NCBI GenBank assembly: GCA_024803745.1
Contig: JANJXV010000129.1
Location: 558,001-622,000 of the forward strand
Direction of reading: 5' to 3'
Length of the DNA stretch: 64,000 nucleotides
Source: Megascapheus bottae
Taxonomy: Eukaryota > Chordata > Mammalia > Rodentia > Geomyidae
Position numbers and translations under genes: made by a program. Position 1 is the first letter of the stretch. Every line of letters begins with the position of its first letter. The notes under the pieces were generated by a model. It did not search any database, was not told the DNA's origin, and saw nothing but the letters and a program-made list of their open reading frames with translations. This document shows positions 5,300 to 59,820 of the stretch, piece by piece.

Positions 5300-6487
5300 A
5301 TGGGCAGAACAAGAAACTCAAGAAAAATGTCAAATCAAGAAAAAACATCCCCGACTCAATGTAAACAGACAATGGAACAGTCACTGGCAAACCTAGAGGA
5401 GAGTCTTCCAAGTGCTACACAAATGCAATTGATAAACATCATTAATGAAAAATGTGAAAATATAAAGAAAGAGATAATGAAGGAAGCCATACCTGAACGA
5501 GAGGAAAGCAAAAACAAGGTGATAAGTGAAAAAGAAGAAGCCATACAGGAGGCCATAATAAAGGTTTTTCAAAGAAAGATGGATGAATTCAAAGAATCCA
5601 CAAATAAAAACGTGACCAAACTCCAGCAAATGTCCAAAGAAAATAAAGCTACTGAGCTAACCACTCAAAAGGAAATCGTGGAGATAAAGAAATCCATACA
5701 TGATCTAAAACAAGAGATGCAAGGCATCAAAAGTGAGCAATTAAAAGCAAGGGAGATGAAAAATGAAGTAGACAGCTTTGATAGCAGGTTAGACAATGCA
5801 GAGGAGAGAATTTCCGTGGCTGAAGATAATTTAGGTATTATAGAGAAAGAACAGAAAATGAGTCAATCCAAATCTAGGAAATATGAGAGAGCGCTTCAGG
5901 AGGTCCAAGATACAATTAGGAAGCCTAATTTAAGGCTAGTTGGTATGGAGGAGGGCGTGGAGAAAGAGGTCAATGGTATTGGAAATATACTTCAGGGAAT
6001 CATCTCAGAGAATTTCCCAAATATCCAGAAGGGCAGGCCCATCCACATACGAGAAGCTTTTAGAACCCCAAACAGACCTGACCAGAAAAGAACATCCCAC
6101 CGCCACATTGTGATCCGAACTGGATCAATAGAAACGAAGGGAAAGATCCTAAAGGCAGCCAGGGAAAAGGGATCAGTAACCTACAAAAGCAAACCAATCA
6201 GAATAACCCCAGATTTCTCAGCAGAGACCATGCAAGCACGAAGTGACTGGAAGCATATATGTCATGCCCTTATATCAAATAACTACCAACCAAGAATACT
6301 GTAGCCAGCTAAGCTCTCATTCATAACTGAGGGAACAATAAAAACATTCCATTCCAGGGAAAAGCTGCAACAATATGTCAAAACAAAACCAACACTACAG
6401 AGAATTCTCAAAGATGCTCTATACATAGAACACCAAAATAAATGCAATATAGGGAAAGAAAAGGCACCTAAACAGCATACCATCTAA
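5300..6487 (+). pseudogene. L1 ORF1 (L1-B), open for 334 codons, then a nonsense codon
   Basis: ORF1 encodes the L1 RNA-binding chaperone that coats L1 RNA as trimers. From the ATG at 5300 the frame is open to TAG at 6302-6304. The N-terminal part to about residue 180 is a Lys/Glu-rich coiled coil. An RRM-like core follows (RKPNLRLVG at about 209-217), then the C-terminal domain (KILKAAREKG, about 279-288). The TAG sits in the conserved ILYPAKLSF segment, replacing Tyr. The frame stays open for 60 more codons to TAA at 6485-6487, still matching the family. So the full gene would be about 395 codons, and this copy lacks about 61 of them. All other copies in the window share the same TAG. This is the best-preserved ORF1 here. 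Confidence 0.93.
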
Positions 6488-6535
6488 GGACCACAAGAAC
6501 TGTCAAGACACAGGCCCTACTAAAAGCTTTTAAAA

Positions 6536-9500
6536 ATGGTAGGAACTAATAAATATCTCTCAATCCTAACTCTCAATATCAATGGACTTAACTCTCCAAT
6601 TAAAGGCATAGGTTGTCTAGTTGGATCAAAAAGCAAGAGCCATCGTTCTGCTGTCTTCGAGAGACACATCTTACCCCAAAAAAATCATCTTTTGAAAGGG
6701 AGAGGTTGGAATAAACTCTATCAAGCTAACTGCCCCCATAAACAGGCTGGAGTTGCCATCCTCCTATCAGATACAATAGACTTCAAACTAAAATTAGTAA
6801 GAAAAGACAAAGAAGGTTACTACATACTACTAAAGGGATCTTTCCTCCCGGAAGACATAACAATCCTAAATATTTACACACCCAATCTCGGAGCTCCAAA
6901 CTTCATCAAGCAAACTTTACTTACACTGAAACCATACATAGATCGAAATACAGTGGTTGTTGGTGAGTTTAACACACCACTCTCACCTATGGACAGACCA
7001 TCAAGGCAAAAACTCAAAAGAGAAACCTTAGAACTGAACAACTATATAGACCAACTAGATCTAACAGACATCTGCAGAATATTCCACCCAGTAACACCAC
7101 AATATATGTTTTTCTCAGCAGCACATGGAACATTTTCCAAAATAGACCACATCTTAGGCCATAAAGCAAACCTGGACAGATTCAGAAACACTGAAATTAT
7201 TCCATGCACACTCTCAGACCATAAAGGCATCAAATTGGAGCTGAACACACATCTCCACCAAAGAAAACCCTGTAACTCATGGAGACTGAACAACACATTG
7301 TTGAATCAAAATCAATGAGTCATCGAAGAGATCAGAACAGATATCCAACTGTTTATGAAATTTAACAATAAGGAGCACACAAATATCAACTCCTTAGGGA
7401 CACAACAAAGGCAGTACTCACAGGAAAATTTATAGCGCTGAGTGCCTACAACAGCAAGTTGGAAAAATGGCAAACCAACTAGTTAATGTCTCACCTTAAC
7501 CTCATGGAAAAAGAGCAACAAACCAACCCTAAACCCATTAGGAGAAAGCAAATTATTAAAATCAAAGCAGAATTAAATGATTTGGAGTAAAAAAAATCTA
7601 TAGAAAGAATCAACAAAACAAGGAGTTGGTTCTTTGAAAGAATTAACAAAATTGACAAGCCCTTAGCAAATCTTACCAAAAAAAGAAGAGAGCATATCGA
7701 AATAAACAAAATCGCAGATGAAAATGGTGATATCACTACAGAAATTACCAAGATCCAGAATAACATGAGAGAATACTTCTCTCATGCCAACAAATTTGAG
7801 AATCTAGAAGAAATGGATGAATTCCTAGACAATATTAACATACCCACACTGAACCAAGAAGGGCTAACCCAACTCAACAGACCTATTTCAAGCTCTGAAA
7901 TAGAAATGGAAATTAGACAACTTCCACTTAAAAAGAGCCCAGGGCCAGATGGATTCACAGCTGAATTCTATAAGGTCTTCAAAGCAGAGCTCACACCAAT
8001 ACTCCTCAAGCTCTTCAACGAAATTGGAAATGAAGGCCCTTTACCAAACTCATTCTGTGAAGCCAGCATATCCCTCATCCCCAAACCAGACAGAGATTCA
8101 TCAAAGAAAGAGATCTATAGACCCATTTCTTTGATGAACATCGATGCAAAACTTCTCAACAAAATACTGGCCAACCGTCTACAACAATTCATCAAAAAAA
8201 ATATACACTATGATTAAACTGGATTCATCACAGGGAGGCAAAGCTGGTTCAACATACACAAATCAATTAATATAATTCAACACATCAACAGGAGCAGGGA
8301 TAAAATCACATGATTGTCTCAATAGATGCGGAAAAGGCATTTGACAAGATCCAAAACCCCTTTATGTTAAAAGATGTGGAGAAACTAGGAATCCATGGAA
8401 CATTTCTCAATGTAATAAAGGCTGTGTATGAGAATCCCACTGCTAGTATTATACTTAATGGTGAAAATCTAAAGCCATTCCCTCTAAAATCAGGAACGGG
8501 ACAAGGATGCCCACTCTCTCCACTCCTTTTTAACATAGTACTAGAATTCCTAGACAGTGCAATAAGGCAAGAAGCAAGCATAAAGTGGATCCCAGTAGGG
8601 AAAGAGGAAATAACACTATCCCTCTTTGCAGATGACATGATTCTGTATTTAAAGAATCCTACAGACTCTACTCCCAAGCTCCTTGAGGTGATTCAAAGCT
8701 TTGGAAGGGTAGCAGGCCATAAAATCAACCCTCACATATCAGCTGCCTTACTTTACGCCAACACTGAGAGGAACGAGGCAATAATCAGGAAAGAAAATCC
8801 TTTCACAATAGCCTCAAAGAAAATAAAGTACCTAGCAATTACCTTAACTAAGAATGTAAAGGACCTTTTAGATGAAAACTTTAAAACGATAAAAAAGGAA
8901 ATTAAAGCAGAACTAAGGAAATGGAAAAACCTCCCATGCTCCTGGATTGGAAGAGTCAACATTGTGAAAATGACAATCTTGCCAAGGGCTATCTACAAAC
9001 TCAATGTAATACCCATCAACATCCCAATGTCATTCTTTAAAGACATAGAAGAGGCAATTCAAAATTTCATATGGAATAATAAAAGACCCCGTATAGCAAA
9101 AACACTTCTTAGCAGAAAGAACAGCGCTGAAGGAATTTCAATTACAAACTTAAGACTCTATTACAGAGCTATAATTCTCAAAACAGCTTGGTACTGGCAC
9201 AAGAACAGGCCTGAAGTCCAATGGAGTAGAACTGCGGACCCAGATATTAAACCACAGACCTATGGCCACCTAATCTTTGACCAGGGAGCCAAAAAAATAG
9301 AATGGAAGAAAGATAGCCTCTTCAACAAGTTGTGCTGGCAGAACTGGTTAAACACCTGCAGAAAACTAAAGTTGGATCCTTCTTTGTCCCCTTGCACTAG
9401 AATTAACTCCAAATGGATCAAAGACGTGGAGGTAAAAGCTGACACACTGAAAAGTTTACAGGAAGGAATAGGAGATACACTAGGCCTCCTTGGCACAGGT

Positions 9501-10371
9501 CGAAACTTTCTTAATAAGGACCAAGAATCACAACAAATCAGAGAAAGGCTGGATAAGTGGGACTGCATTAAACTGCAGAGCTTTTGTATGGCAACGGATA
9601 TAGCTAGTAAACTAATCAGGAAGCCTACAGAGTGGGAGAAGATCTTCACCAACCAAACAACGGACCAAGGCCTCATATCTAAAATATATCAACAACTCAA
9701 AAAATTGAATCACTCCAAAACTAACCTCCAAAGTAACACCCATCCCATTAAAAATGGGCCAAAGACTTAAAGAGAGTCTTCTCTGAAGAAGAAACAAAAA
9801 TGGCCTATAGACACATGAAGAAATACTCAACATCTCTGGTCATAAAAGAAATGCAAATCAAAACAAGTCTAAGATTCCACCTAACTCCAGTTAGAATGGC
9901 CAGGATCAGGAAAACGAATGACAACAGATGCTGCAGGGGATGTGGCCAGAAGGGATCACAACTACACTGTTGGTGGGAGTGCAAACTCGTTCAACCACTA
10001 TGGAAAGCAGTGCGGCAGTGCTTCAAAGGTTAAACATCCAACTCCCTTATGACCCAGCAATTCCACTACTTGGCATTTACCCAACAATCCAGAAACAAGG
10101 GCATACTAAACCCACTAGCACAACAATGTTCATTGCAGCACTATTCACCATAGCAAAGACATGGAACCAACCCAGATGTCCCTCAGTTGATGAGTGGATC
10201 AACAAGTTGTGGTATTTGTACACAATGGAATTCTATGCTGCTGCCAGAAAGAATGACATCGCCCCATTTGTTAGGAAATGGAAAGACTTAAAACAAATCA
10301 TATTAAGTGAAGTAAGCCAGACTCAAAGGAACTTAGGCTCAGTGGTTTCCCTCATTCGTCATAATCAGTAG
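6536..10371 (+). pseudogene. L1 ORF2 pseudogene (L1-B)
   Basis: The ATG at 6536 starts the family N terminus (NKYLSILTLNINGLNSPIK). A missing C at about 6604 throws 30-odd residues out of frame, and a second indel in the A-run at about 6676-6683 restores the reading frame of the endonuclease. The endonuclease shows FSKIDHILGH and the SDHK motif, but its catalytic Asp in GDFN is Glu (VGEFN, about 6958). Later breaks are TGA at about 7316, TAG in the linker near 7480, TAA at about 8215, the A-deletion at about 8304 common to A-E, and a frameshift at about 9750. RT motifs [11 protein letters not shown] and FADDMILYL survive. The stop is TAG at 10369-10371. Confidence 0.93.
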
Positions 10372-10788
10372 AAACCTTGGGCTCTACTAGCAGAGCTTGG
10401 CAATAGAGCAAAAGGCCATATATAAGGCCATATAATGTGAAGGTAATTGAAAGGTCCTCCAGGATATTGAAACAAAAGCCATATAATGAATGATTGTTGT
10501 CCTTAATGTACTATGTTGTCTCTCATCTCGTTTGCTGTCCTTGGTTATCCCATATTGGTATAGTATCTCACTTTGTTATCTGATATATTGAATTTATTTG
10601 TATTTGGATATTTGAAATTTGATAGGGAAGGGGAGAAAACCAAAAAGGGTGGAGGGTGTGGGGTTGGAGGGAAATGGGTACCAAGACATGTGAAAGGGTA
10701 TCAATGTATGTGAATTAATGCACCTTCTATCTGGCAAATATCATCTAACCCTTTTACTAATTACAATAAAAAAATGAAAAAAAAAGAA

Positions 10789-12159
10789 GTTGTAGTGTGT
10801 GGGGAGGATGATGGGGTCAAATACATTTCTTCTTAGAAATTTACCTCATCTGGTTGCCCTGGATTTTCCTGGCCTTCTTCTTAGAGAAAGTTCTGTTATA
10901 CTGGATTTGTGACTTGGCAATGATCTAGCATGTACATCTTCGTGTAATACATCCACAACTTCAATGCCTGAGACTCGAGTTTCCCGACCTTTGGCAACAG
11001 CACAGCAACATCTTTCTTCCTCCTGAGCCACAGGCCAAGTGAGCTGGCTTGAGCTGGTTGTTAGTTACAGTGGCTTGGTTACCAGGGTTCCATATTCTGT
11101 TCCATTGTGAGGGAGGCAGGGTCACCTTTCAGGGCCCAATGACCAAAGATCCTTGCTCACAGAAGACCTCACCAAAGACGTACTGGAGGCTGAATCTCTC
11201 CTCCAATCTCACAATATACATGTGGATGTAGTATACAGCACACGTTATTTGTCCAATCTCAATGTCTTCCACTAGGCCCAAGTACCAGTCTGGTCTCAGG
11301 CTCAAGGAGCCTTTCTTAGGTAAGATCCAGACTTAAGGGTCAATATTGCCCTCATCCTTTACAAAACATTTGCTTCACAGTGCCTTCTCTGCCTGCATTT
11401 TGCCCCTTGTCGAATTTTTTTTTGTTTTTGGTAGTTTTGGGACTTGACCTCAGAGTGTGAACATTGTTCTTGGGCTTTCTTTAGGCTTTAGCTGTCCCAC
11501 CGATCCACAGCACCACTTGCAGCGTTTTCTGTGTATGTGGTAATGAGGAATCAAACCTGAGGCTTATTGCTTGGTAGCCAAGTACTCTACCACTAGGTCA
11601 AACACACAGGGCATCTTGCACATATTTTTGTCGTCAATCTACTAGGATATTATTAGGTTTCTGTATCCTAATCAATTTTTTCCTGATGATTAGCTTTGCT
11701 GTCATGTGTAAAAAATGCAAGAGGGAAAAACACAGAAGAATTAGTGAAATTAAAAAAAAAGCATTAGACACAGTTATGTGTTCATTCTTTGTAGGAGAAA
11801 GGATATTTGGATATGATGATGATGATGATGACTTTATAATTACTATGTAAGGGTTGAGAGTTTGGCATAGTGGTAGAGTGCTTGCCTAGCATCCATGAAG
11901 ATCTGGGTTTGATTGCTCAGTATCACATAGATAGAAAATCTAGATGTGGCACTGTGGCTCAAGTGGCAGAGGGCTAGACTTGAGAAAACCCGAGGACAGT
12001 GCTCAGGCCCTGAATTCAAGCCCCAAGACTGGCAGAAAGATAAAAGAAAATAAAAATGCTTTTTACGAGCTAATTCACTCACAGCATTTGCTTCTGAAAT
12101 CTTCGCTTCTGCATCTTGTGAAATACCCCTTTCCCTCAACGTAGACAAGAAAAACAGAT
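10789..12159. repeat. Segment S of unit C
   Basis: Same block as in unit B, with a reverse SINE at about 11411-11606, (TGA)6 at about 11814-11831 and a forward SINE at about 11847-12057. It matches unit B in the length of the TGA run, while D and E have eight repeats. Confidence 0.85.
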
Positions 12160-12719
12160 CCATCCCATGGTCCACTGTGAGGCCACTGGTTGGGCTAAGA
12201 GCTAGTCGTGCAGCAACACATAAGTTTTATTCTAATACTTTCCAAACTTTGTACTCAAATATGCTACCTACTTACCAACTTATGTCAGTTATCCTTATGC
12301 TATAACTTTTGTTCATTACTACAATATTCTTACACTCCTACGTTAATCCTCTTGTACCTTCCCTGACCTCTCTCATTCATTTTTTCTATCTCTGGACCTC
12401 TGCTCGTCTTTCAACCCTTATACTGCACGGATCTACACTTTATGGCTGTTGAGCAATACTGTATATGTAGGTGGTTAATTATTCTCTAGGCTCAGAGGGA
12501 CTTAAAGACAATAGAGATTGGATTGAGAGGATTATTGTTTTGGGTATAAATCGCCTATCAGTGGTTGTATTAGGCTGGTCTGTAAGTGCACAAAAAGAAA
12601 GAGTGATAATACCAATCAAAACTTGTGAACATCTAGAGTCTGCCACCTACAGAGGTCTAGGTTGGTTATATCTGAAAAACTATAATCGTATTTAGTAGTA
12701 ACCTTGCTCCCATTTTCAA

Positions 12720-13892
12720 ATGGGCAGAACAAGAAACTCAAGAAAAATGTCAAATCAAGAAAAAACATCCCCGACTCAATGTAAACAGACAATGGAACAG
12801 TCACTGGCAAACCTAGAGGAGAGTCTTCCAAGTGCTACACAAATGCAATTGATAAACATCATTAATGAAAAATGTGAAAATATAAAGAAAGAGATAATGG
12901 AGGAAGCCATACCTGAACGAGAGGAAAGCAAAAACAAGGTGATAAGTGAAAAAGAAGAAGCCATAAAGGAGGCCATAATAAAGGTTTTTCAAAGAAAGAT
13001 GGATGAATTCATAGAATCCACAAATAAAAACGTGACCAAACTCCAGCAAATGTCCAAAGAAAATAAAGCTACTGAGCTAACCACTCAAAAGGAAATCAAG
13101 GAGATAAAGAAATCCATACATGATCTAAAACAAGAGATGCAAGGCATAAAAAGTGAGCAATTAGAAGCAAGGGAGATGAAAAATAAAGTAGATAGCTTTG
13201 GTAGCAGGTTAGACATTGCAGAAGAGAGTTTTTCCGTGGCTGAAGATAATTTAGGTATTATAAAGAACAGAAAATGAGTCAATCCAAATCTAGGAAATAT
13301 GAGAGAGCGCTTCAGGAGGTCCAAGATACAATTAGGAAGCCTAATTTAAGGATAGTTGGTATTGAGGAGGGAGTGGAGAAAGAGGTCAATGGTATTGGAA
13401 ATATACTTCAGGGAATCATCTCAGAGAATTTCCCAAATATCCAGAACGGCAGGCCATCCAGATACGAGAAGCTTTTAGAACCTCAAAGAGACCTGACCAG
13501 AAAAGAACATGCCACCGCCACATTGTGATTCGAACTGGATCAACAGAAACGAAAGGAAAGATCCTAAAGGCATCCAGGGAAAAGGGATCAGTAACCTACA
13601 AAGGCAAACCAATCAGAATAACCCCAGATTTCTCAGTAGAGACCATGCAAGCACAAAGTGACTGGAAGCATATATGTCATGCCCTTAAATCAAACCAAGA
13701 ATACTGTAGCCAGCTAAGCTCTCATTCATAACTGAGGGAACAATAAAATCATTCCATTCCAGGGAAAAGCTGCAACAATATGTCGAAACAAAACCAACAC
13801 TACAGAGAATTCTCAAAGATGCTCTATAAATAGAAAACCAAAATAAATGCAATATAAGGAAAGAAATGGCACCTAAAGAGCATACCATCTAA
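12720..13892 (+). pseudogene. L1 ORF1 pseudogene (L1-C)
   Basis: The coiled-coil half is open from the ATG at 12720 to about 13277. There, a four-base deletion (attataaagaacag in place of attatagagaaagaacag) shifts the frame and ends it at IIKNRK. The RRM-like and C-terminal parts continue in other frames (13274-13528, 13525-13731). A one-base loss near 13452 and a ten-base deletion near 13694 add further breaks. The shared TAG is at 13707-13709. The four-base deletion is common to C, D and E but absent from B and G. Confidence 0.92.
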
Positions 13893-13940
13893 GGACCACA
13901 AGAACTGTCAAGACACAGGCCCTACTAAAAGCTTTTAAAA

Positions 13941-16900
13941 ATGCTAGGAACTAATAAATATCTCTCAATCCTAACTCTCAATATCAATGGACTGAACTCT
14001 CCAATTAAACGGCATAGGCTGTCTAGTTGGATCAAAAAGCAAGAGCCATCGTTCTGCTGTCTTCAAGAGACACATCTTACCCAAAAACAATCATCTTTTG
14101 AAAGTGAGAGGTTGGAATAAACTCTATCAAGCTAACTGCCCCCATAAACAGGCTGGAGTTGCCATCCTCATATCAGATACAACAGACTTCAAACTAAAAT
14201 TAGTAAGAAAAGACAAAGAAGGTTACTACATACAACTAAAGGGATCTTTCCTCCAGGAAGACATAACGATCCTAAATATTTACACACCCAATCTCGGAGC
14301 TCCAAACTTCATCAAGCAAACTTTACTTACACTGAAACCATACATAGATCGAAATACAGTGATTGTTGGTGAGGTTAACACACCACTCTCACCTATGGAC
14401 AGATCAACAAGGCAAAAACTCAACAGAGAAACCTTAGAACTGAACAACTATATAGACCAACTAGATGTAACAGACATCTGCAGAATATTCCACCCAGTAA
14501 CACCACAATATAGGTTTTTCTCAGCAGCACATGGAACATTTTCCAAAATAGACCACATCTTAGGCCATAAAGCAAACCTGGACTTATTCAGAATCACTGA
14601 AATTATTCCATGCACACTCTCAGACCATAAAGGCATCAAATTGGAGCTGAACACACATCTCCACCAAAGAAAATCCTGTAAATCATGGAGACTGAACAAC
14701 ACATTGTTTAATCAAAAACAATGGGTAATCGAAGAGATCAGAACAGATATCCAACTGTTTATGAAATTTAACAATAAGGAGCACACAAATATCAACTCCT
14801 TAGGGACACAACAAAGGCAGTACTCAGAGGAAAATTTATAGCGCGGAGTGCCTACAACAGCAAGTTGGAAAAATGGCAAACCAACTAGTTAATGTCTCAC
14901 CTTAACCTCCTGGAAAAAGAGCAACAAACCAACCCTAAACCCATTAGGAGAAAGCAAATTATTAAAATCAAAGCAGAATTAAATGATTTGGAATAAAAAA
15001 ATCTATAGAAAGAATCAACAAAACAAAGAGTTGGTTCTTTGAAAGAATTAACAAAATTGACAAGCCCTTAGGAAATCTTACCAAGAAAAGAACAGAGCAT
15101 ATCGAAATAAACAAAATCGCAGATGAAAATGGTAATATCACGACAGAAATTACCAAGATCCAGAATATCATGAGGGAATACTTCTCAAACCTTTATGCCA
15201 ACAAATTTGAGAATCTAGAAGAAATGGATGAATTCCTAGACATTATTAACATACCCACACTGAACCAAGAAGAGATAACCCAACTCAACAGGCCTATTTC
15301 AAGCTCTGAAATAGAAATGGAAATTAGACAACTTCCACTTAAAAAGAGCCCAGGGCCAGATGGATTCACAGCTGAATTCTATAAGGTCTTCAAAGCAGAG
15401 CTCACACCAATACCCCTCAAACTCTTCAACGAAATTAAAAATGAAGGTTCTTTACCAAAGTCATTCTGTGAAGCCAGTATATCCCTCATCCCCAAACCAG
15501 ACAGAGATTCATCAAAGAAAGAGATCTATAGACCCATTTCTTTGATGAACATCGATGCAAAACTTCTCAACAAAATACGGGCCAACGGTCTACAACAACT
15601 CATCAAAAAAATTATACACTATGATAAAACTGGATTCATCACAGGGAGGCAAAGCTGGTTCAACATACACAAATCAAGTAATATAATTCAACACATCAAC
15701 AGGAGCAGGGATAAAATCACATGATTGTCTCAATAAATGCAGAAAAGTCATTTGACAAGATCCAAAACCCCTTTATGTAAAAAGATGTGGAGAAACTAGG
15801 AATCCATGGAACATTTCTCAATGTAATAAAGGCTGTGTATGAGAAACCCACTGCTAGTATTATACTTAGTGGTGAAAATCTAAAGCCAGTCCCTCTAAAA
15901 TCAGGAACGAGACAAGGATGCCCACTCTCTCCACTCCTTTTTAACATAGTACTAGAATTCCTAGGCAGTGCAATAAGGCAAGAAGCAAGCATAAAGGGGA
16001 TCCAAGTAGGGAAAGAGGAAATAAAACTATCCCTCTTTGCAGATGACATGATTCTGTATTTAAAGAATGCTATAGACTCTAGTCCCAAGCTCCTTGAGCT
16101 GATTCAAAGCTTTGGAAGGGTAGCAGGCCATAAAATCAACCCTCACAAATCAACTGCCTTACTTTACGCCAACACTGAGAGGAACGAGGCAATAATCAGG
16201 AAAGAAATTCCTTTCACAGTAGCCTCAAAGAAAATAAAGTACCTAGCAATTAGCTTAACTAAGAATGTAATGGACCGTTTAGATGAAAATATTAAAACCA
16301 TAAAAAAGGAAATAAAAGCAGAACTAAGGAAATGGAAAAACCTCCCATGCTCCTGGATTGGAAGAATCAACATTGTGAAAATGACAATCTTGCCAAGGGC
16401 TATCTACAAATTCAATGTAATACCCATCAACATCCCAATGTCATTCTTTAAAGAAATAGAAGAGGCAATTCAAAATTTCATATGGAATAATAAAAGACCC
16501 CGTATAGCAAAAATTCTTCTTAGCAGAAAAAACAAGAATTTCAATTCAAAACTTAAGACTCTCTTACAGAGCTATAATTCTCAAAACATCTTGGTACTGG
16601 CACAAGAACAGGCCTGAAGTCCAATGGAGTAGAACTGCGGACCCAGATATTAAACCTCAGACCTATGGCCACCTAATCTTTGACCAGGGAGCCAAAAAAA
16701 TAGAATGGAAGAAAGATAGCCTCTTCAACAAGTTGTGCTGGCAGAACTGGTTAAACACCTGCAGAAAATTAAAGTTGGATCCTTCTTTGTCCCCTTGCAC
16801 TAGAATTAACTCCAAATGGATCAAAGACGTGGAGGTAAAAGCTGACACACTGAAAAGTTTACAGGAAGGAATAGGAGATACACTAGGCCTCCTTGGTACA

Positions 16901-17776
16901 GGTCGAAACTCTCTTAATAAGGACCAAGAATCACAACAAATCAGAGAAAGGCTGGATAAGTGGGACTGCATTAAACTGCAGAGCTTTTGTATGGCAACGG
17001 ATATAGCTAGTAAACTAATCAGGAAGCCCACAGAGTGGGAGAAGATCTTCACCACCCAAACAACGGAACAAGGCCTCATATCTAAAATATATCAACAACT
17101 CAAAAAATTGAATCACTCCAAAACTAACCTCCAAAGTAACACCCATCCCATTACAAAATGGGCCAATGACTTAAAGAGAGTCTTCTCTAAAGAAGAAACA
17201 AAAATGGCCTATAGACACATGAAGAAATGCTCAACATCTCTGGTCATAAAAGAAATGCAAATCAAAACAAGTCTAAGATTCCACCTAACTCCAGTTAGAA
17301 TGGCCAGGATCAGGAAAACGAATGACAACAGATGCTGGAGGGGATGTGCCCAGGAGGGATCACTACTACACTGTTGGTGGGAGTGCAAACTCGTTCAACC
17401 ACTATGGAAAGCAGTGCGGCAGTGCCTCAAAACGCTAAACATACAACTCCCCTATGACCCAGCAATTCCAGTACTTGGCATTTACCCAACAATCCAGAAA
17501 CAAGGGCATACTAAACCCACTAGCACAACAATGTTCATTGCAGCACTATTCACCATAGCAAAGATATGGAACCAACCCAGATGTCCCTCAGTTGATGAGT
17601 GGATCAACAAGTTGTGGTATTTGTACACAATGGAATTCTATGCTGCTGTCAGAAAGAATGACATCGCCCCATTTGTTAGGAAATGGAAAGACTTAGAACA
17701 AATCATATTAAGTGAAGTAAGCCAGACTCAAAGGAACTTAGGCTCAGTGGTTTCCCTCATTCGTCATAATCAGTAG
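13941..17776 (+). pseudogene. L1 ORF2 pseudogene (L1-C)
   Basis: Unlike B, this copy keeps the C in aaacggcat, so the canonical frame runs from 13941 through ETHLT before the frameshift that all copies share in the following A-run (about 14078-14090). The endonuclease continues from about 14098 to 14841 in the shifted frame. Its GDFN motif reads VGEVN, with both Asp and Phe changed. The linker and RT start run 15170-15724 and end at the A-deletion shared by A-E. TAA at about 15777 (MLKDV site) is shared with L1-A only. A deletion near 16530 removes part of the RKNSAGG region. The C-terminal part is open 16733-17776, ending at TAG 17774-17776. Confidence 0.92.
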
Positions 17777-18195
17777 AAACCTTGGGCTCTACTAGCAGAG
17801 ATTGGCAATAGAGCAAAAGGCCATATATAAGGCCATATAATGTGAAGCTAATTGAAAGGACCTCCAGGATATTGACACAAAAGCCATATCATGAATGATT
17901 GTTGTCCTTAATGTACTATGTTGTCTCTCATCTCGCTTGCTGTCCCTTGGTTATCCCATATTGGTATAGTATCTCACTTTGTTATCTGATATATTGAATT
18001 TATTTGTATTTGGATATTTGAAATTTGATAGGGAAGCGGGGAAAACCAAGACGGGTGGGGGGTGTGGGGTTGGAGGGACATGGGTACCAAGACATGTGAA
18101 AGGGTATCAATGTATGTGAATTAATGCACCTTCTATCTGGCAAATATCATCTAACCCTTTTACTAATTACAATAAAAAAATGAAAAAAAAAGAAA

Positions 18196-19569
18196 GTTGT
18201 AGTGTGTGGGGAGGATGATGGGGTCAAATACATTTCTTCTTAGAAATTTACCTCATCTGGTTGCCCTGGATTTTCCTGGCCTTCTTCTTAGAGAAAGTTC
18301 TGTTATACTGGATTTGTGGCTTGGCAATGATCTAGCATGTACATCTTCGAGTAAGACATCCACAACTTCCATGCCTGAGACTCGAGTTTCCTGACCTTTG
18401 GCAACAGCACAGCAACATCTTTCTTCCTCCTGAGCCACAGGCCAAGTGAGCTGGCTTGAGCTGGTTGTTAGTTACAGTGGCTTGGTTACCAGGGTTCCAT
18501 ATTCTGTTCCATTGTGAGGGAGGCAGGGTCACCTTTCAGGGCCCAATGACCAAAGATCCTTGCTCACAAAAGACCTCACCAAAGACATACTGGAGGCTGA
18601 CTCTCTCCTCCAGTCTCACAATATACATGTGGATGAAGTATACAGCACACCTTATTTGTCCAATCCCAATGTCTTCCACTAGGCCCAACTACCAGTCTGG
18701 TCTCAGGCTCAAGGAGCCTTTCTTAGGTAAGATCCAAACTTAAGGGTCAATATTGCCCTCATCCTTTACAAAACATTTGCTTCACAGTGCCTTCTCTGCC
18801 TGCATTTTGCCCCTTGTCGAATTTTTTTTGTTTTTGCTAGTCTTGGGACTTGACCTCAGAGTGTGAACATTGTTCTTGGGCTTTCTTTAGGCTTTAGCTG
18901 TCCCACCGAGCCACAGCACCACTTGCAGCGTTTTCTATGTATGTGGTAATGAGGAATCAAACCTGAGGCTTACTGCTTGGTAGCCAAGGACTCTCCCACT
19001 AGGTCAAACACACAGGGCATCTTGCACATATTTTTGACGTCAATCTACTAGGATATTATTAGGTTTCTGTATCCTAATCAATTTTTTCCTGATGATTAGC
19101 TTTGCTGTCATGTGTAAAAAATGCAAGAGGGAAAAACACAGAAGAATTAGTGAAATTAAAAAAAGCATTAGACACAGTTAAGTGTTCATTCTTTGTAGGA
19201 GAAAGGATATTTGGATATGATGATGATGATGATGATGATGACTTTATAATTACTATGTCAGGGTGGAGAGTTTGACATAGTGGTAGAGTGCTTGCCTAGC
19301 ATCCATGAAGATCTGGGTTTGATTGCTCAGTACCACATAGATAGAAAATCTAGATGTGGCACTGTGGCTCAAGTGGCAGAGGGCTAGACTTGAGAAAACC
19401 CGAGGACAGTGCTCAGGCCCTGAATTCAAGCCCCAAGACTGGCAGAAAGATAAAAGAAAATAAAAATGCTTTTTACGAGCTAATTCACTCATAGCATTTG
19501 CTTCTGAAATCTTCGCTTCTGCATCTTGTGAAATACCCCTTTCCCTCAACGTAGACAAGAAAAACAGAT
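18196..19569. repeat. Segment S of unit D
   Basis: Same block, with a reverse SINE at about 18818-19013, a (TGA)8 run at about 19218-19241 and a forward SINE at about 19260-19470. The eight-repeat TGA run is shared with unit E. Confidence 0.85.
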
Positions 19570-20128
19570 CCATCCCATGGTCCACTGTGAGGCCACTGGT
19601 TGGGCTAAGAGCTAGTCGTGCAGCAACACATAAGTTTTATTCTAATACTTTCCAAACTTTGTACTCAAATATGCCACCTACTTACCAACTTATGTCAGTT
19701 ATCCTTATGCTATAACTTTTTTCATTACTACAATATTCTTACACTCCTACGTTAATCCTCTTGCACCTCCCCTGACCTCTCTCATTCTTTTTTTCTATCT
19801 CTGGACCTCTGCTCGTCTTTCAACCCTTATACTGCACGGATCTACACTTGATGGCTGTTGAGCAATATTGTATATGTAGGTGGTTAATTATTCTCTAGGC
19901 TCAGAGGGACTTAAAGACAACAGAGATTGGATTGAGAGGCTTATTGTTTTGGGTATAAATCGCTTATCAGTGGTTGTATTAGGCTGGTCTGTAAGTGCAC
20001 GAAAAGAAAGAGTGATAATACCAATCAAAACTTGTGAACATCTAGTGTCTGCCAGCTACAGAGGTCTAGGTTGGTTATATCTGAAAAACTATAATCGTAT
20101 TTAGTAGTAATCTTGCTCCCATTTTCAA

Positions 20129-21304: not shown

Positions 21305-21352
21305 GGACCACAAGAACTGTCAAGACACAGGCCCTACTAAAAGCTTTTAAAA

Positions 21353-25194: not shown

Positions 25195-25613
25195 AAACCT
25201 TGGGCTCTACGAGCAGAGATTGGCAATAGAGCAAAAGGCCATATATAAGGCCATATAATGTGAAGCTAATTGAAAGGACCTCCAGGATATTGACACAAAA
25301 GCCATATCATGAATGATTGTTGTCCTTAATGTACTATGTTGTCTCTCATCTCGCTTGCTGTCCCTTGGTTATCCCATATTGGTATAGTATCTCACTTTGT
25401 TATCTGATATATTGAATTTATTTGTATTTGGATATTTGAAATTTGATAGGGAAGCGGGGAAAACCAAGACGGGTGGGGGGTGTGGCGTTGGAGGGAAATG
25501 GGTACCAAGACATGTGAAAGGGTATCAATGTATGTGAATTAATGCACCTTCTATCTGGCAAATATCATCTAACCCTTTTACTAATTACAATAAAAAAATG
25601 AAAAAAAAAGAAA

Positions 25614-26987: not shown

Positions 26988-27548
26988 CCATCCCATGGTC
27001 CACTGTGAGGCCACTGGTTGGGCTAAGAGCTAGTCGTGCAGCAACACATAAGTTTTATTCTAATACTTTCCAAATTTTGTACTCAAATATGCTACCTACT
27101 TACCAACTTATGTCAGTTATCCTTATGCTATAATTTTTCTTCATTACTACAATATTCTTACACTTCTACGTTAATCCTCTTGCACCTCCCCTGACCTCTC
27201 TCATTCTTTTTTTTCTATCTCTGGACCTCTGCTCATCTTTCAACCCTTATACTGCACGGATCTACACTTGATGGCTGTTGAGCAATATTGTATATGTAGG
27301 TGGTTAATTATTCTCTAGGCTCAGAGGGACTTAAAGACAACAGAGATTGGATTGAGAGGCTTATTGTTTTGGGTATAAATCGCTTATCAGTGGTTGTATT
27401 AGGCTGGTCTGTAAGTGCACAAAAAGAAAGAGTGATAATACCAATCAAAACTTGTGAACATCTAGTGTCTGCCAGCTACAGAGGTCTAGGTTGGTTATAT
27501 CTGAAAAACTATAATCGTATTTAGTAGTAATCCTGCTCCCATTTTCAA

Positions 27549-51145: not shown

Positions 51146-52427
51146 ACAAAATGTGACGCTGAGTCGTCCATCATTTGGTGTTATAGTTCAATATTCTTGA
51201 TATGCGTCTTAGAAATTAAGTCCCTAGCAAATACTCTCCCCTGAAATTCTGCTTCATAGCTGATTCATAGAATTTCAGCATCATTACTATCACCTTCCCG
51301 TTAGCATAGCAGTCTACTACTGCAAATTTGAACAAAACTTTTGAGTAATCCTAATTAATCTGTGTACCATCTGCACACACATCAAATCAGCAGCAGCTAT
51401 GATCTACTATTATCTAAATGTATTTAATCCCTTCTTGAGTTAATGAGCCTTAAAGAGTAAAACATATGAAATAGTTATGAAACTAACAGTCACCATTCTT
51501 CTACCTAATATTGTAATATAAGTTTATAAATGCAAGGACTATTCTGAAGTGTGCAGAAGATAGCTTCTAATTATAATATTCTCATGAAGTATAGTTTTTA
51601 AGAAACATGTTGTTTGCTTTGGGAAAGCAAAGGCAAGGAAAAATGATATAAGTAAGTTCCCTATTTATCAGAAGGAAAATACTATTGGGTTTAGATCAAC
51701 TTTCATTCATTCCGTGCTGATGAAACAAATATTTGCAATTCCTGAGGCCAATCACTTCATTGTGATGCACAATCAGCCAGCTTAGATCAATCTTCCAAAA
51801 AAGGAAAGGAACAAATGAGAAGCAATTAAGGTTTCCAAAATGAACCAGGTGGTGGTGGCAGCTCACACTTGTAATTCTATCTACTCAAGGCCTGAAATCC
51901 AAGGATCTGGACTAAGTCTGTCTGTTATGAAAATATTCCTGTTTGAAACATCATCTCTGTTATCACAGCCCAGCTGATACACTCTGCCCAACAGGTTCCA
52001 AACACCAACGTCCATCTCCTATCTGAAATACTAGCAAACGTACTCACACATTATTTCCTCTTTGGGAGATAGTTGAAACAAGTACCAAAAACATTTCCCT
52101 GGCTTCAGAGTGGAAGTGGAAATATATACTGACTAGAAGCCCATCTAGTAAACTACAGTCAATCATCTTTCCTCACATCTTGTTAGTTAAATTGAAAATG
52201 AGTGTTTGGATCAGAAGAGATGTGTATGAGCATACAGGTTGTAAAAGTACTGTAATCCTAGCTACTCAAGATAAGCTGAGACCTGAGGATTCCAGTTCAA
52301 AATCAGCCACGCAATAAATTCCATAAGATTTTTACCTCTAATTAACCAGCAAAAAACAGAGCGTTGAATTGTGCGTAAAATGCCACAGGCCTAAGCTTTG
52401 CATAAAAGTGGTAAGGGGTAGCATTCA
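51146..52427. other. Unassigned AT-rich sequence with SINE fragments
   Basis: Partial B1-like SINE pieces lie at about 51849-51925 and 52245-52400. No gene is supported elsewhere. Confidence 0.55.
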
Positions 52428-55400
52428 GGATGCCCACTCTCTCCACTCCTTTTAAACATAGTACTAGAATTCCTAGGCAGTGCAATAAGGCAAGAAGCAA
52501 GCATAAAGGGGATCCAAGTGGAGAAGGAGGAAAAAAAACTATCCCTCTTTGCAGATGACATGATTCTGTATTTAACAACTATATAGACCAACTAGATCTA
52601 ACAGACATCTGCAAAATATTCCACCCAGTAACAACACAATATACGTTTTCTTCAGCATCAAATGGAACATTTTCTAAAATAGACCACATCTTAGGCCATA
52701 AAACAAACCTGGACAGATTCAGAAACACTGAAATCATTTAATGCACAATCTCAGACCATAAAGGCATCAAATTGGATCGAAAACCCTGTAACTAATGGAG
52801 ACTGAACAACACATTGTTGAATCAAAAACAATGGGTAATCGAAGAGATCAGAACAGATATCCAACTGTTTATGAAATTTAACAATAAGGAGCACACAAAT
52901 ATCAACTCCTTAGGGACACAACAAAGGCAGTACTCAGAGGAAAATTTATAGCACTGAGTGCCTACAACACCAAGTTGGAAAAATGGCAAACCAACTAGTT
53001 AATGTTTCACCTTAACCTCCTGGAAAAAGAGCAACAAACCAACCCTAAACCCATTAGGAGAAAGCAAATTATTAAAATCAAAGCAGAATTAAATGATTTG
53101 AAATAAAAAAAATTATAGAAAGAATGAACAAAACAAGGAGTTGGTTCTTTGAAAGAATTAATAAAATTGACAAGCCCTTAGCAAATCTTACCAAAAATAG
53201 GAGAGAGCATATCGAAATGAACAAAATCGCAGATGAAAATGGTAATATCATGACAGAAATTACCAAGATCCAGAATATCATGACGGAATACTTTTCAAAA
53301 CTTTACGCCAACAAATTTGAGAATCTAGTAGAAATGGATGAATTCCTAGACAATATTAACATAACCACACTGAACCAAGAAGAGCTAACCCAACTCAACA
53401 GGCCTATTTCAAGCTCTGAAATAGAAATGGAAATTAGACAACTTCCACTTAAAAAGAGCCCAGGGCCAGATGGATTCACAGCTGAATTCTATAAGGTCTT
53501 TAAAGCAGAGCTCACACCAATACACCTCAAGCTCTTCAACGAAATTGAAAATGAAGGTTCTTTACCAAACTCATTCTGTGAAGCCAGTATATCCCTCATC
53601 CCCAAACCAGACAGAGATTCATCAAAGAAAGAGAACTATAGACCCATTTCTTTGATGAACATCGATGCAAAACTTCTCAACAAAATACTGGCCAACCGTC
53701 TACAACAACTCATCAAAAAAATTATACATTATGATCAAACTGGATTCATCACAGGGAAGCAAAGCTGGTTCAACATACACAAATCAATTAATATAATGCA
53801 ACACATCAACAGGAGCAAGGACAAAAATCACATGATTGTCTCAATAGATGCAGAAAAGGCATTTGACAAGATCCAAAACCCCTTTATGTTAAAAGATGTG
53901 GAGAAACTAGGAATCCATGGAACATTTCTCAATGTAATAAAGGCTGTGTATGAGAAACCTACTGCTAGTAGTATACTTAATGGTGAAAAACTAAAGCCAT
54001 TCCCTCTAAAATCAGGAACAAGACAAGGATGCCCACTCTCTCCACTCCTTTTTAACATAGTACAAGAATTCCTAGGCAGTGCAATAAGGCAAGAAGCAAG
54101 CATAAAGGTGATCAAAGTAGGGAAAGAGGAAATAAAACTATCCCTCTTTGCAGATGACATGATTCTGTATTTAAAGAATCCTATAGACTCTACTCCCAAG
54201 CTCCTTGAGCTGATTCAAAGCTTTGGAAGGGTAGCAGGCCATAAAATCAACCCTCACAAATCAACTGCCTTCCTTTACGCCAACACTGAGAGGAACGTGG
54301 CAATAATCAGGAAAGAAACTCGTTTCACAATAGCCTCAAAGAAAATAAAGTACCTAGCAATTAGCTTAACTAAGAATGTAAAGGAAGGTTTAGATGAAAA
54401 CTTTAAAAATCTAAAAAAAGAAATTAAAGCAGAACTAAGGAAATGGAAAAGCCTCCCATGCTCCTGGATTGGAAGAATCAACATTGTCAAAATGACAGTC
54501 TTGCCAAGGTCTATCTACTAATTCAATGCAATACCGATCAACATCCCAATGTCATTCTTTAAAGAAATAGAAGAGGCAATTCAGAATTTCATATGGAATA
54601 ATAACAGACCCCGCAGAGCAAAAACACTTCTTAGCAGAAAGAACAGCGCTGGAGGAATTTCAATTCCAAACTTAAGACTCTGTTACAGAGCTATAATTCT
54701 CAAAACAGCTTGGTACTGGCACAGGAACAGGCCTGAAGTCCATTGGAGTAGAACTGCGGACCCAGATATTAAACCACAGACCTATGGCCACCTAATCTTT
54801 GACCAGGGAGCCAAAAAAATAGAATGGAAGAAAGATAGCCTCTTCAACAAGTTGTGCTGGCAGAACTGGTTAAACACCTGCAGAAAACTAAAGTTGGATC
54901 CTTCTTTGTCACCTTGCACTAGAATTAACTCCAAATGGATCAAAGACCTGGAGGTAAAAGCTGACACACTGAAAAGTTTACAGGAAGGAATAGGAGATAC
55001 ACTAGTCCTCTTTGGCACAGGTCGAAACTTTCTTAATAAGGACCAAGAATCACAACAAATCAGAGAAAGGCTGGATAAGTGGGACTGCATTAAACTGCAG
55101 AGCTTTTGTATGGCAACGGATATAGCTAGTAAACTAATCAGGAAGCCTACAGAGTGGGAGAAGATCTTCACCAACCAAACAACGGACAAAGGCCTCATAA
55201 CTAAATTATATCAACAACTCAAAAAATTGAATCACTCCAAAACTATCCTCCAAAGTAACACCCATCCTATTACAAATGGGCCAAAGACTTAAGAGAGTCT
55301 TCTCTGAAGAAGAAACAAAAATGGCGTATAGACACATGAAGAAATGCTCCACATCTCTGGTCATAAAGAAATGCAAATCAAAACAACTCTAAGATTCCAC

Positions 55401-55892
55401 CTCACTCCAGTTAGAATGGCCAGGATCAGGAAAATGAATGACAACAGATGCTGGAGGCGATGTGGCCAGGAGGGATCAGTACTACACTGTTGATGGGAGT
55501 GCAAACTCGTTCAACCACTATGGAAAGCAGTGCGGCAGTGCCTCAAAAGGCAAAAAATAGAACTCCCCTATGACCCAGCTATTCCACTACTTGGCATTTA
55601 CCCAACAATCCAGAAACAAGGGCATACTAAACCCACTAGCACAACAATGTTCATTGCAGCACTATTCACCATAGCAAAGATATGGAACCAACCCAGATGT
55701 CCCTCAGTTGATGAGTGGATCAACAAGTTGTGGTGTTTGTATACAATGGAATTCTATGCTGCTGTCAGAAAGAATGACATCGCCCCATTTGTTAGGAAAT
55801 GGAAAGACTTAGAACAAATCATATTAAGTGAAGTAAGCCAGACTCAAAGGAACTTAGGCTCAGTGGTTTCCCTCATTCGTCATAATCAGTAG
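52428..55892 (+). pseudogene. L1-F ORF2, rearranged pseudogene
   Basis: A GCPLSPLL to FADDMILYL fragment (52428-52575) is fused at ctgtattta/acaactatatag to mid-endonuclease ([11 protein letters not shown]), which is normally far upstream. The simplest origin is a deletion from one unit's RT into the next unit's endonuclease. A 25-base-scale deletion follows near 52772. The linker-RT frame 53124-54521 is the longest ORF2 stretch of the window and has five A's at about 53823-53827, so the break seen in A-E is absent. It ends at a private TAA (ctatctactaattc, 54519-54521). 54549-55292 and 55530-55892 complete the C-terminal region with further frameshifts near 55275 and 55365. Confidence 0.9.
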
Positions 55893-56311
55893 AAACTTTG
55901 GGCTCTACTAGCAGAGATTTGCAATAGAGAAAAAGGCCATATATAAGGCCATATAATGTGAAGCTAAATGAAAGGACCTCCAGGATATTGAAACAAAAGC
56001 CACATAATGAATGATTGTTGTCCTTAATGTACTATGTTGTCTCTCATCTCGTTTGCTGTCCCTTGGTTATCCCATATTGGTATAGTATCTCACTTTGTTA
56101 TCTGTTATATTGAATTTATTTGTATATGGATATTTGAAATTTGATAGGGAAGGGGGGAAAACCAAGACGGGTGGGGGGGTGTGGGGTTGGAGGGAAATGG
56201 GTACCAAGACATGTGAATGGGTATCAATGTATGTGAATTAATGCACCTTCTATCTGGCAAATATCATCTAACCCTTTTACTAATTACAATAAAAAATTTA
56301 AAAAACAGAAA
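55893..56311 (+). other. L1-F 3' UTR and tail
   Basis: Same 3' UTR as in A-D, with G-rich block at about 56150-56200. The tail reads caataaaaaatttaaaaaacagaa before S begins at 56312. Confidence 0.85.
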
Positions 56312-57676
56312 GTTGTAGTGTGTGGGGAGGATGATGGGGTCAAATACATTTCTTCTTAGAAATATACCTCATCTGGTAGCCCTGGATTTTCCTGGACTTC
56401 TTCTTAGAGAAAGTCCTGTTATACTGGATTTGTGGCTTGGCAATGATCTAGCATGTACATCTTCGAGTAAGACATCCATAACTTCCATGCCTGAGACTCG
56501 AGTTTCCTGACCTTTGGCAACAGCACAGGAACATCTTTCTTCCTCCTGAGCCAAAGGCCAAGTGAGCTGGCTTGAGTTGGTTGTTAGTTACAGTGGCTTG
56601 GTTGCCAGGGTTCCATATTCTGTTCCATTTTGAGGGAGGCAGGGTCACCTTTCAGGGCCCAATGACCAAAGATCCTTGCTCAGAGAAGACCTCACCAAAG
56701 ACATACTGGAGGCTGAATCTCTCCTCCAATCTCACAATATACATGTGGATGTAGTAAACAGCACACCTTATTTGTCCAATCCCAATGTCTTCCACTAGGC
56801 CCAACTACCAGTCTGGTCTCAGGCTCAAGGAGCCTTTCTTAGGTAACATCCAGACTTAAGGGTCAATATTGCCCTCATCCTTTACAAAACATTTGCTTCA
56901 CAGTGCCTTCTCTTTCTGTATTTTGCCCCTTGTCGAATTTTTTTTGTTTTTGCTAGTCTTGGAACTTGACCTCAGAGTGTGAACATGGTTCTTGGGCTTT
57001 TTTTAGGCTTTAGCTGTCCCACCGAGCCACAGCACCACTTGCAGCGTTTTCTATGTATGTGGTAATGAGGAATCAAACCTGAGTCTTTTTGCGTGGTAGC
57101 CAAGGACTCTACCACTAGGTCAAACACACAGGGCATCTTGCACATATTTTTGACGTCAATCTACTAGGATATTATTAGGTTTCTGTATCCTAATCACTTT
57201 TTTATTGATGATTTGCTTTGCTGTCATGTGTAAAATATGCAAGAGGGAAAAACACAGAAGAATTAGTGAAATTTAAAAAAAAGCATTACACACATAGATA
57301 AATGTTCATTCTTTGTAGGAGAAAGGATATTTTGATATGATGATGATGACTTTATAATTACTATGTCAGCGTTGAGAGTTTGGCATAGTTGTAGAGTGCT
57401 TGCCTAGCATCCATGAAGATCTGGGATTGATTGCTCAGTATCACATAGATAGAAAATCTAGATGTGGCACTGTGGCTCAAGTGGCAGAGGGCTAGACTTG
57501 AGAAAACCCGAGGACAGTGCTCAGGCCCTGAATTCAAGCCCCAAAACTGGTAGAAAATAAAAGAAAATCAAAATGCTTTTTACGAGCTAATTCACTCACA
57601 GCATTTGCTTCTGAAATCTTCGCTTCTGCATCTTGTGAAATACCCCTTTCCCTCAACGTAGACAAGAAAAACAGAT
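56312..57676. repeat. Segment S of unit G
   Basis: The reverse SINE lies at about 56935-57130 and the forward SINE at about 57367-57575. The TGA run has four repeats, as in the solitary copy at 43730-45090, against six in B and C and eight in D and E. So four is probably ancestral. Confidence 0.85.
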
Positions 57677-58235
57677 CCATCCCATGGTTCACTGTGAGGC
57701 CACTGGTTAGGCTAAGAGCTAGACGTGCAGCAACACATGAGTTTTATTCTAATACTTTCCAAACTTTGTACTCAAATATGCTACCTACTTACCAACTTAT
57801 TTCAGTTATCCTTATTCTATACCTTTTCTTCTTTACTACAATATTCTTACACTCCTACGTTAATCCTCTTGTACCACCCCTGAACTCTCTCATTCTTTTT
57901 TTCTATCTCTGGACCTCTGCTGGTCTTTCAACCCTTATACTGCACGGATCTACACTTGATGGCTGTTGAGCAATATTGTATATGTAGGTGGTTAATTATT
58001 CTCTAGGCTCAGAGGGACTTAAAACAATAGAGATTGGATTGAGAGGCTTATTGCTTTGGGTATAAATCGCTTATCAGTGGTTGTATTAGACTGGTCTGTA
58101 AGTGCACAAAAAGAAAGAGTGATAATAACAATCAAAGCTTGCGAACATCTAGTGTCTGCCAGCTACAGAGGTCTAGGTTGGTTATATCTGAAAAACTATA
58201 ATCGTAGTTAGTAGTAATCTTGCTCCCATTGTCAA

Positions 58236-59439
58236 ATGGGCAGAACAAGAAACTCAAGAAAAATTTCAAATCAAGAAACAACATCCCCCACACAATGTAA
58301 ACAGACAATGGAACAGTCACTGGCAAACCTAGAGGAGAGTCTTCCAAGTGCTACACAAATGCAATTGATAAACATCCTTAATGGAAAATGTGAAAATATA
58401 AAGAAAGAGATAATAGAGGAAGACATAGCTGAACAAGAGGAAAGCATAAACAAAGTGATAAGTGAAAAAGAAGAAGCCATAAAGGAGGCCATAATAAAGG
58501 TTTTTCAAAGAAAGATGGATGAATTCATAGAATCCACAAATAAAAACGTGACCAAACTCCAGCAAATGTCCAAAGAAAATAAAGCTACTGAGCTAACCAC
58601 TCAAAAGGAAATCAAGGAGATAAAGAAATCCATACATGATCTAAAACAAGAGATGCAAGGCATCAAAAATGAGCAATTAGAAGCAAGGGAGATGAAAAAT
58701 AAAGTAGATAGTTTTGATAGCAGGTTAGACAATGCAGAGGAGAGAATTTCCGGGGCTGAAGATAATTTAGTTATTATAGAGAATGAACAGAAAATGAGTC
58801 AATCCAAATCTAGGAAATATGAGAGAGCGCTTCAGGAGTTCCAAGATACAATTAGGAAGCCTAATTTAAGGCTAGTTGGTATTGAGGAGGGTGTGGAGAA
58901 AGAGGTCAATGGTATTGGAAATATACTTCAGGGAATCATCTCAGAGAATTTCCCAAATATCCAGAAGGGCAGGTCCATCCAGAAACGAGAAGCTTTTCGA
59001 ACCCCAAACAGGCCTGACCAGAAAAGAACATCCCACTGCCACATTGTGATCCGAACTGGATCAATAGAAACGAAAGAAAAGATCCTAAAGGCAGCCAGGA
59101 AAAGGGATCAGTAACCTATAAAGGCAAACCAATCAGAATAACCCCAGATTTCAAAGCAGAGACCATGCAAGCACGAAGTGACTGGAAGCATATATGTCAT
59201 GCCCTTAAATCAAATAACTACCAACCAAGAATACTGTAGCCAGCTAAGCTCTCATTCATAACTGAGGGAACAATAAAAACATTCCATTCCAGGGAAAAGC
59301 TGCAACAATATGTCGAAACAAAACCAACACTACAGAGAATTCTCAAAGATGCTCTATACATAGAAAACCAAGATAAATGCAACATAGGGAAAGAAATGGC
59401 ACCTAAACAGCATACCATCTATGGACCACAAGAACTGTC
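58236..59439 (+). pseudogene. L1 ORF1 pseudogene (L1-G)
   Basis: ORF1 is open from the ATG at 58236 for 292 codons and lacks the four-base deletion of C-E, as in B (IIENEQKMSQ). A one-base loss near 59100 (gccaggaaaaggg in place of gccagggaaaaggg) shifts it into TAA at 59112-59114. The family-wide TAG is at 59237-59239. The normal TAA has become TAT (accatctatgg), so even a restored frame would run on. Confidence 0.92.
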
Positions 59440-59470
59440 AAGACACAGGCCCTACTAAAAGCTTTTAAAA

Positions 59471-59820
59471 ATGGTAGGAACTAATAAATATCTCTCAATC
59501 CTAACTCTCAATATCAATGGACTTAACTCTCCAATTAAACGGCATAGGCTGTCTAGTTGGTTCAAAAAGCAAGAGCCATCGTTCTGCTGTCTTCAATAGA
59601 CACATCTTACCCAAAAACAATCATCTTTTGAGAGTGAGAGGTTGGAATAAACTCTATCAAGCTAACTGCCCCCATAAACAGGCTGGAGTTGCCATCCTCA
59701 TATCAGATACAATAGACTTCAAACTAAAAATAGTAAGAAAAGACAAAGAAGGTTACTACATACTACTAAAGGGATCTCTCCTCCAGGAAGACATAACGAT
59801 CCTAAATATTTACACACCCT
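59471..59820 (+). pseudogene. L1-G ORF2, endonuclease start only
   Basis: It begins with ATG at 59471 and the NKYLSILTLNINGL start, keeps aaacggcat, then has the shared frameshift after ETHLT-like sequence. It is readable again to ITILNIYTP before truncation. The catalytic GDFN site lies beyond the cut. Confidence 0.9.

Follow-up and report, generated by a model that had tools for sequence, protein, structure and literature searches.

Long interspersed nuclear elements (LINEs) can reportedly rearrange a genome by LINE-LINE-mediated non-allelic homologous recombination, as described by Startek in 2015. Clusters of mouse genes for KRAB zinc-finger proteins (KRAB-ZFPs) grow by segmental duplication, and chimeric LINEs within them are ascribed to non-allelic recombination mediated by transposable elements in the part of the source drawn on here (PMC12575710). 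Satellites derived from LINE-1 (L1) have been reviewed, with non-allelic homologous recombination as one route to their formation; the portion of that review used here covers PROsat of Phodopus, derived from L1 open reading frame 2 (ORF2), Pvc 20 and the common cetacean satellite (PMC9659126). The present analysis concerns a window of 64,000 nucleotides from the rodent Megascapheus bottae (assembly GCA_024803745.1, contig JANJXV010000129.1, positions 558,001 to 622,000), which self-BLAST established to be part of a head-to-tail array whose unit of approximately 7,412 bases comprises one full-length L1 and a 1,374-base non-L1 spacer, termed S. Every copy of this L1 that covers the lesion sites within the 174 kb surveyed is broken, and the most probable account of its origin is that two L1s came to flank S and recombined with each other, after which unequal exchange and segmental duplication multiplied the broken element.

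Contigs are written C1, C2 and so on, with C129 being the contig that holds the window, and copies were counted over an extended region, C129:488001-662000 (174 kb, the window plus 110 kb). This region contains four blocks, A to D, each with a segment termed X and an L1-S-L1 arrangement, and the main array belongs to block B. The entire array occupies C129:521969-590680, with its left start 36 kb outside the window, and holds eight complete units (as matched to U4, U4 included), a partial unit at either end and nine copies of S. Within the window it extends over 1..32680 on the plus strand as units U1 (1-7418), U2 (7419-14824), U3 (14825-22236), U4 (22237-29663) and partial U5 (29664-32680); U1 to U4 are 97.1-98.3% identical to one another, and the complete units of the array 96.9-98.2% identical to U4. 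These are head-to-tail, near-identical units, as expected of a tandem array, with the length of the array being that of one assembly. In unit phase the L1 5′ end lies near 4740, ORF1 starts at 5300, ORF2 runs from about 6.5 kb over the unit boundary and the poly(A) lies near 3366. Complete L1s from 5′ end to poly(A), which we read as chimeric, are present at 4740..10783, 12160-18189 and 19570-25607 (plus strand; domain profiles and a 5′ end match on C12). Their assignment to L1 follows from an ORF1 with a Transposase_22 domain and an ORF2 with AP-like endonuclease and reverse transcriptase: PF02994 and PF03372 were detected in the frames of U1 and PF00078 in those of other copies, and the relatives of the array proteins in PDB are L1 ORF1p and ORF2p. 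A remnant unit of the next block, referred to as copy C, was located by BLAST at 52427..59819 (plus strand), where phase 1088-1236 (52427-52575) is fused to phase 7037 onward, followed by S and by L1 as far as ORF2 nucleotide ~303.

The initial annotation had listed five lesions as common to all readable copies and had proposed that DNA duplication, not retrotransposition, multiplied them; all five lesions were recovered over the extended region. The stop (TAG) in the ILYPAK segment of ORF1, at codon 338, is present in 12/12 region copies, including all five in the window, where it lies at 6302, 13707, 21119, 28546 (earlier placed at about 28542) and 59237; the first of these closes the ORF1 at 5300..6304 (plus strand). 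A 2-base deletion in the A-run after ETHLT, at ORF2 codon 33 in the endonuclease, was likewise found in 12/12 copies (6662..6710, plus strand, in the first complete copy). The Asp129Glu change in GDFN is shared by the 10/10 copies covering it, four of which are the window copies that reach the site, reading GE[F/V]NTPL at 6962..6979 (GEFNTP, plus strand), 14368 (GEVN), 21780 and 29207. A 1-base deletion at ORF2 codon 267 (NKEHTN), previously reported as a frameshift near NNKEHTN, and a TAG at codon 300 in the ORF2 linker some 100 bases further on (7372..7482, plus strand) each occur in 11/11 covering copies. For scoring the lesions in ORF2 the reference was the frame of L003, an L1 that belongs to the same genome and whose ORF2 stays open over 1,256 codons. 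The altered Asp aligns with the GDFN Asp of a solved L1 ORF2p (9k6g), which we take to be catalytic. Owing to the universal stops and frameshifts, none of the array L1s has the open ORF1 and ORF2 of an autonomous element.

The comparison set consisted of L001-L008 with their upstream stretches L050-L057, being the first eight of 150 scored RVT_1 matches. In ORF2 these L1s show 93-95% identity with the L1 of the array; five are located on contigs of more than 50 Mb, one on C43, L005 on C183 and L008 on C182, and since L005 and L008 are 99% sisters the eight represent about seven independent elements. The ORF1 frame is open for ~400 codons in four of the eight. Four of the lesions are absent from 8/8 of these L1s, three of which read ADFN with the Asp retained, and the 2-base deletion is absent from 7/8; it recurs in L008, and as a homopolymer slip it constitutes weak evidence when taken alone. 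L005 lacks this deletion although it is the sister of L008, and both carry a different deletion, of 7 bases, at the codon-267 site. L005/L055 and L008/L056 also have ORF1 lesions of their own in common (codons 8, 53, 259 and 307), and the pair probably represents another case of a dead L1 multiplied as DNA.

Copies of S were located by BLAST at 3366..4739, 10784-12159, 18190-19569, 25608-26987 and 56306-57676 (plus strand), and the mean divergence among 41 copies was 1.65%. S is bounded by the same L1 ends, poly(A) on the left and the L1 5′ end on the right, in 12/12 region copies: at the left boundary the poly(A) is followed by sequence like AAGAAAGTTGTAG, single copies deviating by 1-2 bases or a base gap, and at the right boundary ACAAGAAAAACAGAT is followed by L1 with the same small single-copy variation. 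An L1 was present on both sides of S in 29/29 loci from other contigs, these being the best S matches of 40 scored. These constant ends, together with the position of the array inside a duplicated KRAB-zinc-finger block, support the earlier proposal that an already broken element was duplicated as DNA. Three inverted paralogues of S, termed S′, lie within the region, one each in blocks B, C and D, and that at 43730..45092 (minus strand; BLAST and junction comparison) is 84% identical to S with both L1 target sites unoccupied. S′ differs from S by a mean of 14.6% and is contiguous with it along the full length. The left target site is free of L1, ACAAGAAGGTTGTAG being read through in the 2/2 S′ that reach that end, and the right target site, ACAAGAAAAACAGAT, is read through in 3/3. 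The absence of L1 from both junction points in S′ indicates that S was bordered by two L1 insertions, barring a loss of L1s from S′. An unrelated flank precedes an L1 on C12 whose 5′ end confirms that of the array L1 to within 5 bases. In 12/12 copies the poly(A) end is present and the two flanks of the L1 differ, which is expected of a recombinant without being proof of one.

The left-hand and right-hand insertions are designated L1a and L1b, respectively, and an exchange between them predicts that the inner L1s of the array have an L1b front and an L1a back, with the last L1 keeping its own L1b end. The last L1 (26988..32680, plus strand), which is cut in the 3′ untranslated region (UTR) at 32680, fits this prediction, and the reading as a whole is in our judgement likely to be correct. 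Comparison of lineage sites, with a control over all copies, identified it as a mosaic: before ORF2 nucleotide 1930 it shares 44/44 founder sites, defined by the derived state in every other copy, and has 7 private changes, and from nucleotide 2022 it shares 19 founder sites, is ancestral at 7 and carries 30 private changes. The corresponding values from nucleotide 2022 for the 12 other copies are 0-1 ancestral founder sites and 1-19 private changes each. In its 3′ part the last L1 is 3.8-4.4% divergent from the inner array copies, which themselves differ by 2.3% on average. The switch point falls between ORF2 nucleotides 1990 and 2022, just inside nucleotide 1929, where the L1a remnant starts on the left side of block B and of block D. 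No universal lesion lies downstream of the switch, all five being upstream of it. The founder has the appearance of a composite of two L1s, the right-hand one having contributed the part with all five lesions.

On this model two L1s in the same orientation would have inserted on either side of the 1.37-kb S, the unoccupied target sites in S′ being observed and the two events deduced from them. L1b would then have lost ORF1 and the ORF2 endonuclease through ordinary decay, and non-allelic homologous recombination between L1a and L1b, switching near ORF2 nucleotides 1990-2022, may have generated a tandem unit of an L1b/L1a hybrid and S. Unequal exchange would have extended the array, and repeated duplication of the surrounding KRAB zinc-finger block, to which the flanks and spacing point, would have carried the dead L1 to thousands of copies, with no L1 protein from these copies being required after the two insertions. 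A simple 5′-truncated L1a with its own target duplication was sought at the left edges and not found, the best candidate having 4 mismatches of 13.

Several observations weigh against this origin. A search of the block edges did not reveal outer counterparts of the two presumed target-site duplications; S′ is a paralogue of 84% identity and not an empty allele, and the paralogues seen carry both sites unoccupied, no locus with a single insertion having been seen among them. At the edges themselves, L1a starts at ORF2 nucleotide 1929 on the left of blocks B and D, L1b ends at about nucleotide 303 in blocks A, C and D, and the right end of block B is a join into X. Since there is no overlap between the L1 pieces that block D now holds, L1b must have extended further when it recombined, and a longer L1b is present in block B. 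In copy C the ancestral state is present at 5 founder sites of the 5′ part, and the 3′ part is 2.8-4.1% divergent from the inner copies; the last L1 retains 19 sites derived in all other copies; as copy C is also distant, the donor for the last L1 could have been an old unit or an outside L1.

On a genome-wide scale the S/L1 junction was found at 17,551 places with ≤2 mismatches, an exact 35-mer spanning the ORF1 stop at 12,482 and an exact 28-mer at codon 300 at 11,595, with the reversed control returning 0 in each case; as a final reservation, these counts come from a single assembly, in which the inclusion of both haplotypes or the collapse of copies may have inflated or deflated them. Junctions on C52 (64 of the listed places) are spaced 7.3-7.5 kb apart in 34/63 successive gaps, and 49/62 codon-300 sites sampled on this contig are separated from an exact ORF1-stop or junction match by the distance that the unit sets, the other 13/62 falling off this offset because exact strings miss mutated ones. 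Taking 17,551 units of 7.4 kb gives roughly 130 Mb, or ~4.6% of the assembly if each unit is whole. There is about an even chance that the dead L1 sandwich constitutes a chromosome-scale macrosatellite of ~17,500 fused L1 and spacer units, built only by recombination with a KRAB zinc-finger amplicon; were this so, a large share of the full-length L1s of this genome would owe their number to host DNA duplication and not to retrotransposition.

Spread in trans of a defective L1 subfamily by retrotransposition, with the array being a local tandem duplication of one member, would account for the single lesions encountered outside arrays and for the 2-base deletion of L008. Exact-string places are listed in apparent contig order with large contigs first, and we examined 12 exact ORF1-stop strings on C2-C34 and one codon-300 string, leaving out the ORF1-stop strings on C38, C43 (twice) and C47. 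The 12 ORF1-stop L1s, scored by eye, have the 2-base deletion in 0/12, Glu in 0/11, the 1-base deletion at 267 in 0/10 and the TAG at codon 300 in 0/10 assessable elements; the C12 element does not contain the regions of the later lesions, the C14 and C15 elements each lack one, and that on C16 has a 1-base, not a 2-base, deletion at the site after ETHLT. The sole exact codon-300 string listed on C1-C51 belongs to a full-length L1 at C12:4787571 with another 5′ flank and no S, in which the ORF1 site is unbroken, a different small deletion lies beside the 2-base deletion site and none of the other four lesions is present. This L1 has the codon-300 TAG and a neighbouring base in common with the arrays, which may reflect chance or conversion. 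A second lesion was thus found in none of the thirteen where assessable (0/13 for the 2-base deletion, 0/12 for Glu, 0/11 for the deletion at 267, 0/10 and 0/1 for the other stop), so that the recurrence of the set in dispersed L1s, which would have spoken for spread in trans, was looked for in part and only single lesions recurred. No exact junction is among the places listed on C1-C37, and with L1 on both sides of S in every one of the loci on other contigs we consider spread in trans highly improbable.

Alternatively, the lesions may have arisen at different times in an existing array and been spread by gene conversion, the first duplicated L1 perhaps being less broken. Some lesions are indeed only partly shared, namely a 4-base deletion at ORF1 codon 184 (10/12 region copies), 1-base deletions at ORF2 codons 576 (10/11) and 351 (8/11), a stop at ORF2 codon 492 (8/11) and a stop at codon 24 (7/12), the last being confined to the block B array. 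Their nested distribution indicates that decay started before amplification and continued during it. L1 copies B6 and B7 (U1-U2) and copy C (52574-56306) have ancestral alleles in common at neighbouring ORF2 sites, which points to exchange among array copies or to old polymorphism. Changes private to one array copy comprise 211 missense, 12 stop and 72 silent, so that 223/295 (75.6%) alter or stop a codon compared with an expected 73%, a near neutral make-up; among the fixed array differences (27 missense, 1 stop and 19 silent) the codon-changing fraction is lower at 28/47 (P = 0.032), so that some of them date from a time before its death when the lineage was under constraint. These findings favour exchange among copies, and gene conversion inside the array may have helped to fix some lesions. 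As the source of the whole set it is nevertheless unlikely: each of the region's four blocks has the ORF1 stop and the 2-base deletion, no block copy that extends to the sites of the remaining three lesions lacks them, and the exact stop strings recur at 12,482 and 11,595 places, too uniform a pattern for late local conversion. A single L1 insertion duplicated in tandem with its flanks by end joining, without recombination between L1s, has the merit of needing only one insertion, the outer target-site copies for two not having been found, and the change of lineage in the last L1 could have come about in another way; S is, however, unbroken over its full length in S′, leaving no duplication breakpoint inside it, and the last L1 switches lineage inside ORF2, for which reasons this explanation appears improbable, less so than spread in trans and more so than gene conversion. 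Recombination between two L1s on either side of S accordingly remains our preferred explanation.

Segment X, which holds a KRAB exon recognised by eye, lies at 32677..34244 with a second copy at 62433-64000 (97.6% identical; plus strand, BLAST), and it is joined to the truncated array at 32680, where the L1 3′ UTR ends. X is of high copy number in the genome, the 40 scored of 1,826 candidates all being 99-100% identical. The KRAB exon (32860-32975, by eye) and a C2H2 finger region (36459-37774), in which the finger frame 36617-37315 is open, place a zinc-finger gene between the array and the remnant unit. Copies of X at C71:444684, 467461 and 490238, spaced by 22,777 bases, indicate a tandem zinc-finger block that is apparently shorter than the blocks described here. 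Scanning the window with Rfam and for tRNAs produced no match, and one IMG/VR scan returned no relative. The type of SINE present is suggestive of geomyoid rodents. Elsewhere in the genome, RVT_1 matches on C62, C64, C137, C403, C700, C2132 and C301 occur in inverted pairs, mostly 17-23 kb apart (168 kb on C301), with open frames of equal length within a pair (1136, 935 or 798 amino acids), and represent another recent high-copy segment carrying L1s. An RVT_1 match at C14:54601873 lies within an open frame of 9047 amino acids.

The copy number of full-length L1s is usually taken to record retrotransposition. In the present genome the near-identical broken copies, which number in the thousands, appear to have been duplicated as DNA, and in such genomes L1 counts, ages and activity estimates need a test of the flanks. 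The proposed course of events, in which two insertions gave a hybrid L1 and this in turn a macrosatellite within a zinc-finger amplicon, is testable in related species. No description of this amplicon was found in the literature searched by title or abstract opening, which is not evidence that none has been published. The mechanism belongs to a known kind and its scale is unusual: compared with cases of LINE-LINE recombination, one such event appears here to have given rise to a tandem unit whose junction was matched 17,551 times. As in the mouse Chr4 KRAB-ZFP cluster, L1s would here have recombined and left chimeric L1s in zinc-finger clusters that expand by segmental duplication, and as in young KRAB-zinc-finger gene clusters growth is fast, through large segmental duplications that include transposons; the mouse clusters are described as rich in endogenous retroviruses in the part of that source considered here, whereas in M. 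bottae dead L1 arrays form much of the block (PMC12575710). L1-derived satellites similarly arise by tandem multiplication of L1 sequence through recombination and not retrotransposition, although their monomers, according to the portion of the review used, resemble parts of L1, and the monomer described here is a whole L1 with 1.37 kb of other DNA (PMC9659126). To the extent that these sources are drawn on here, the array fits what both describe (PMC12575710; PMC9659126), on what appears to be a larger scale and with the unit including an entire L1.

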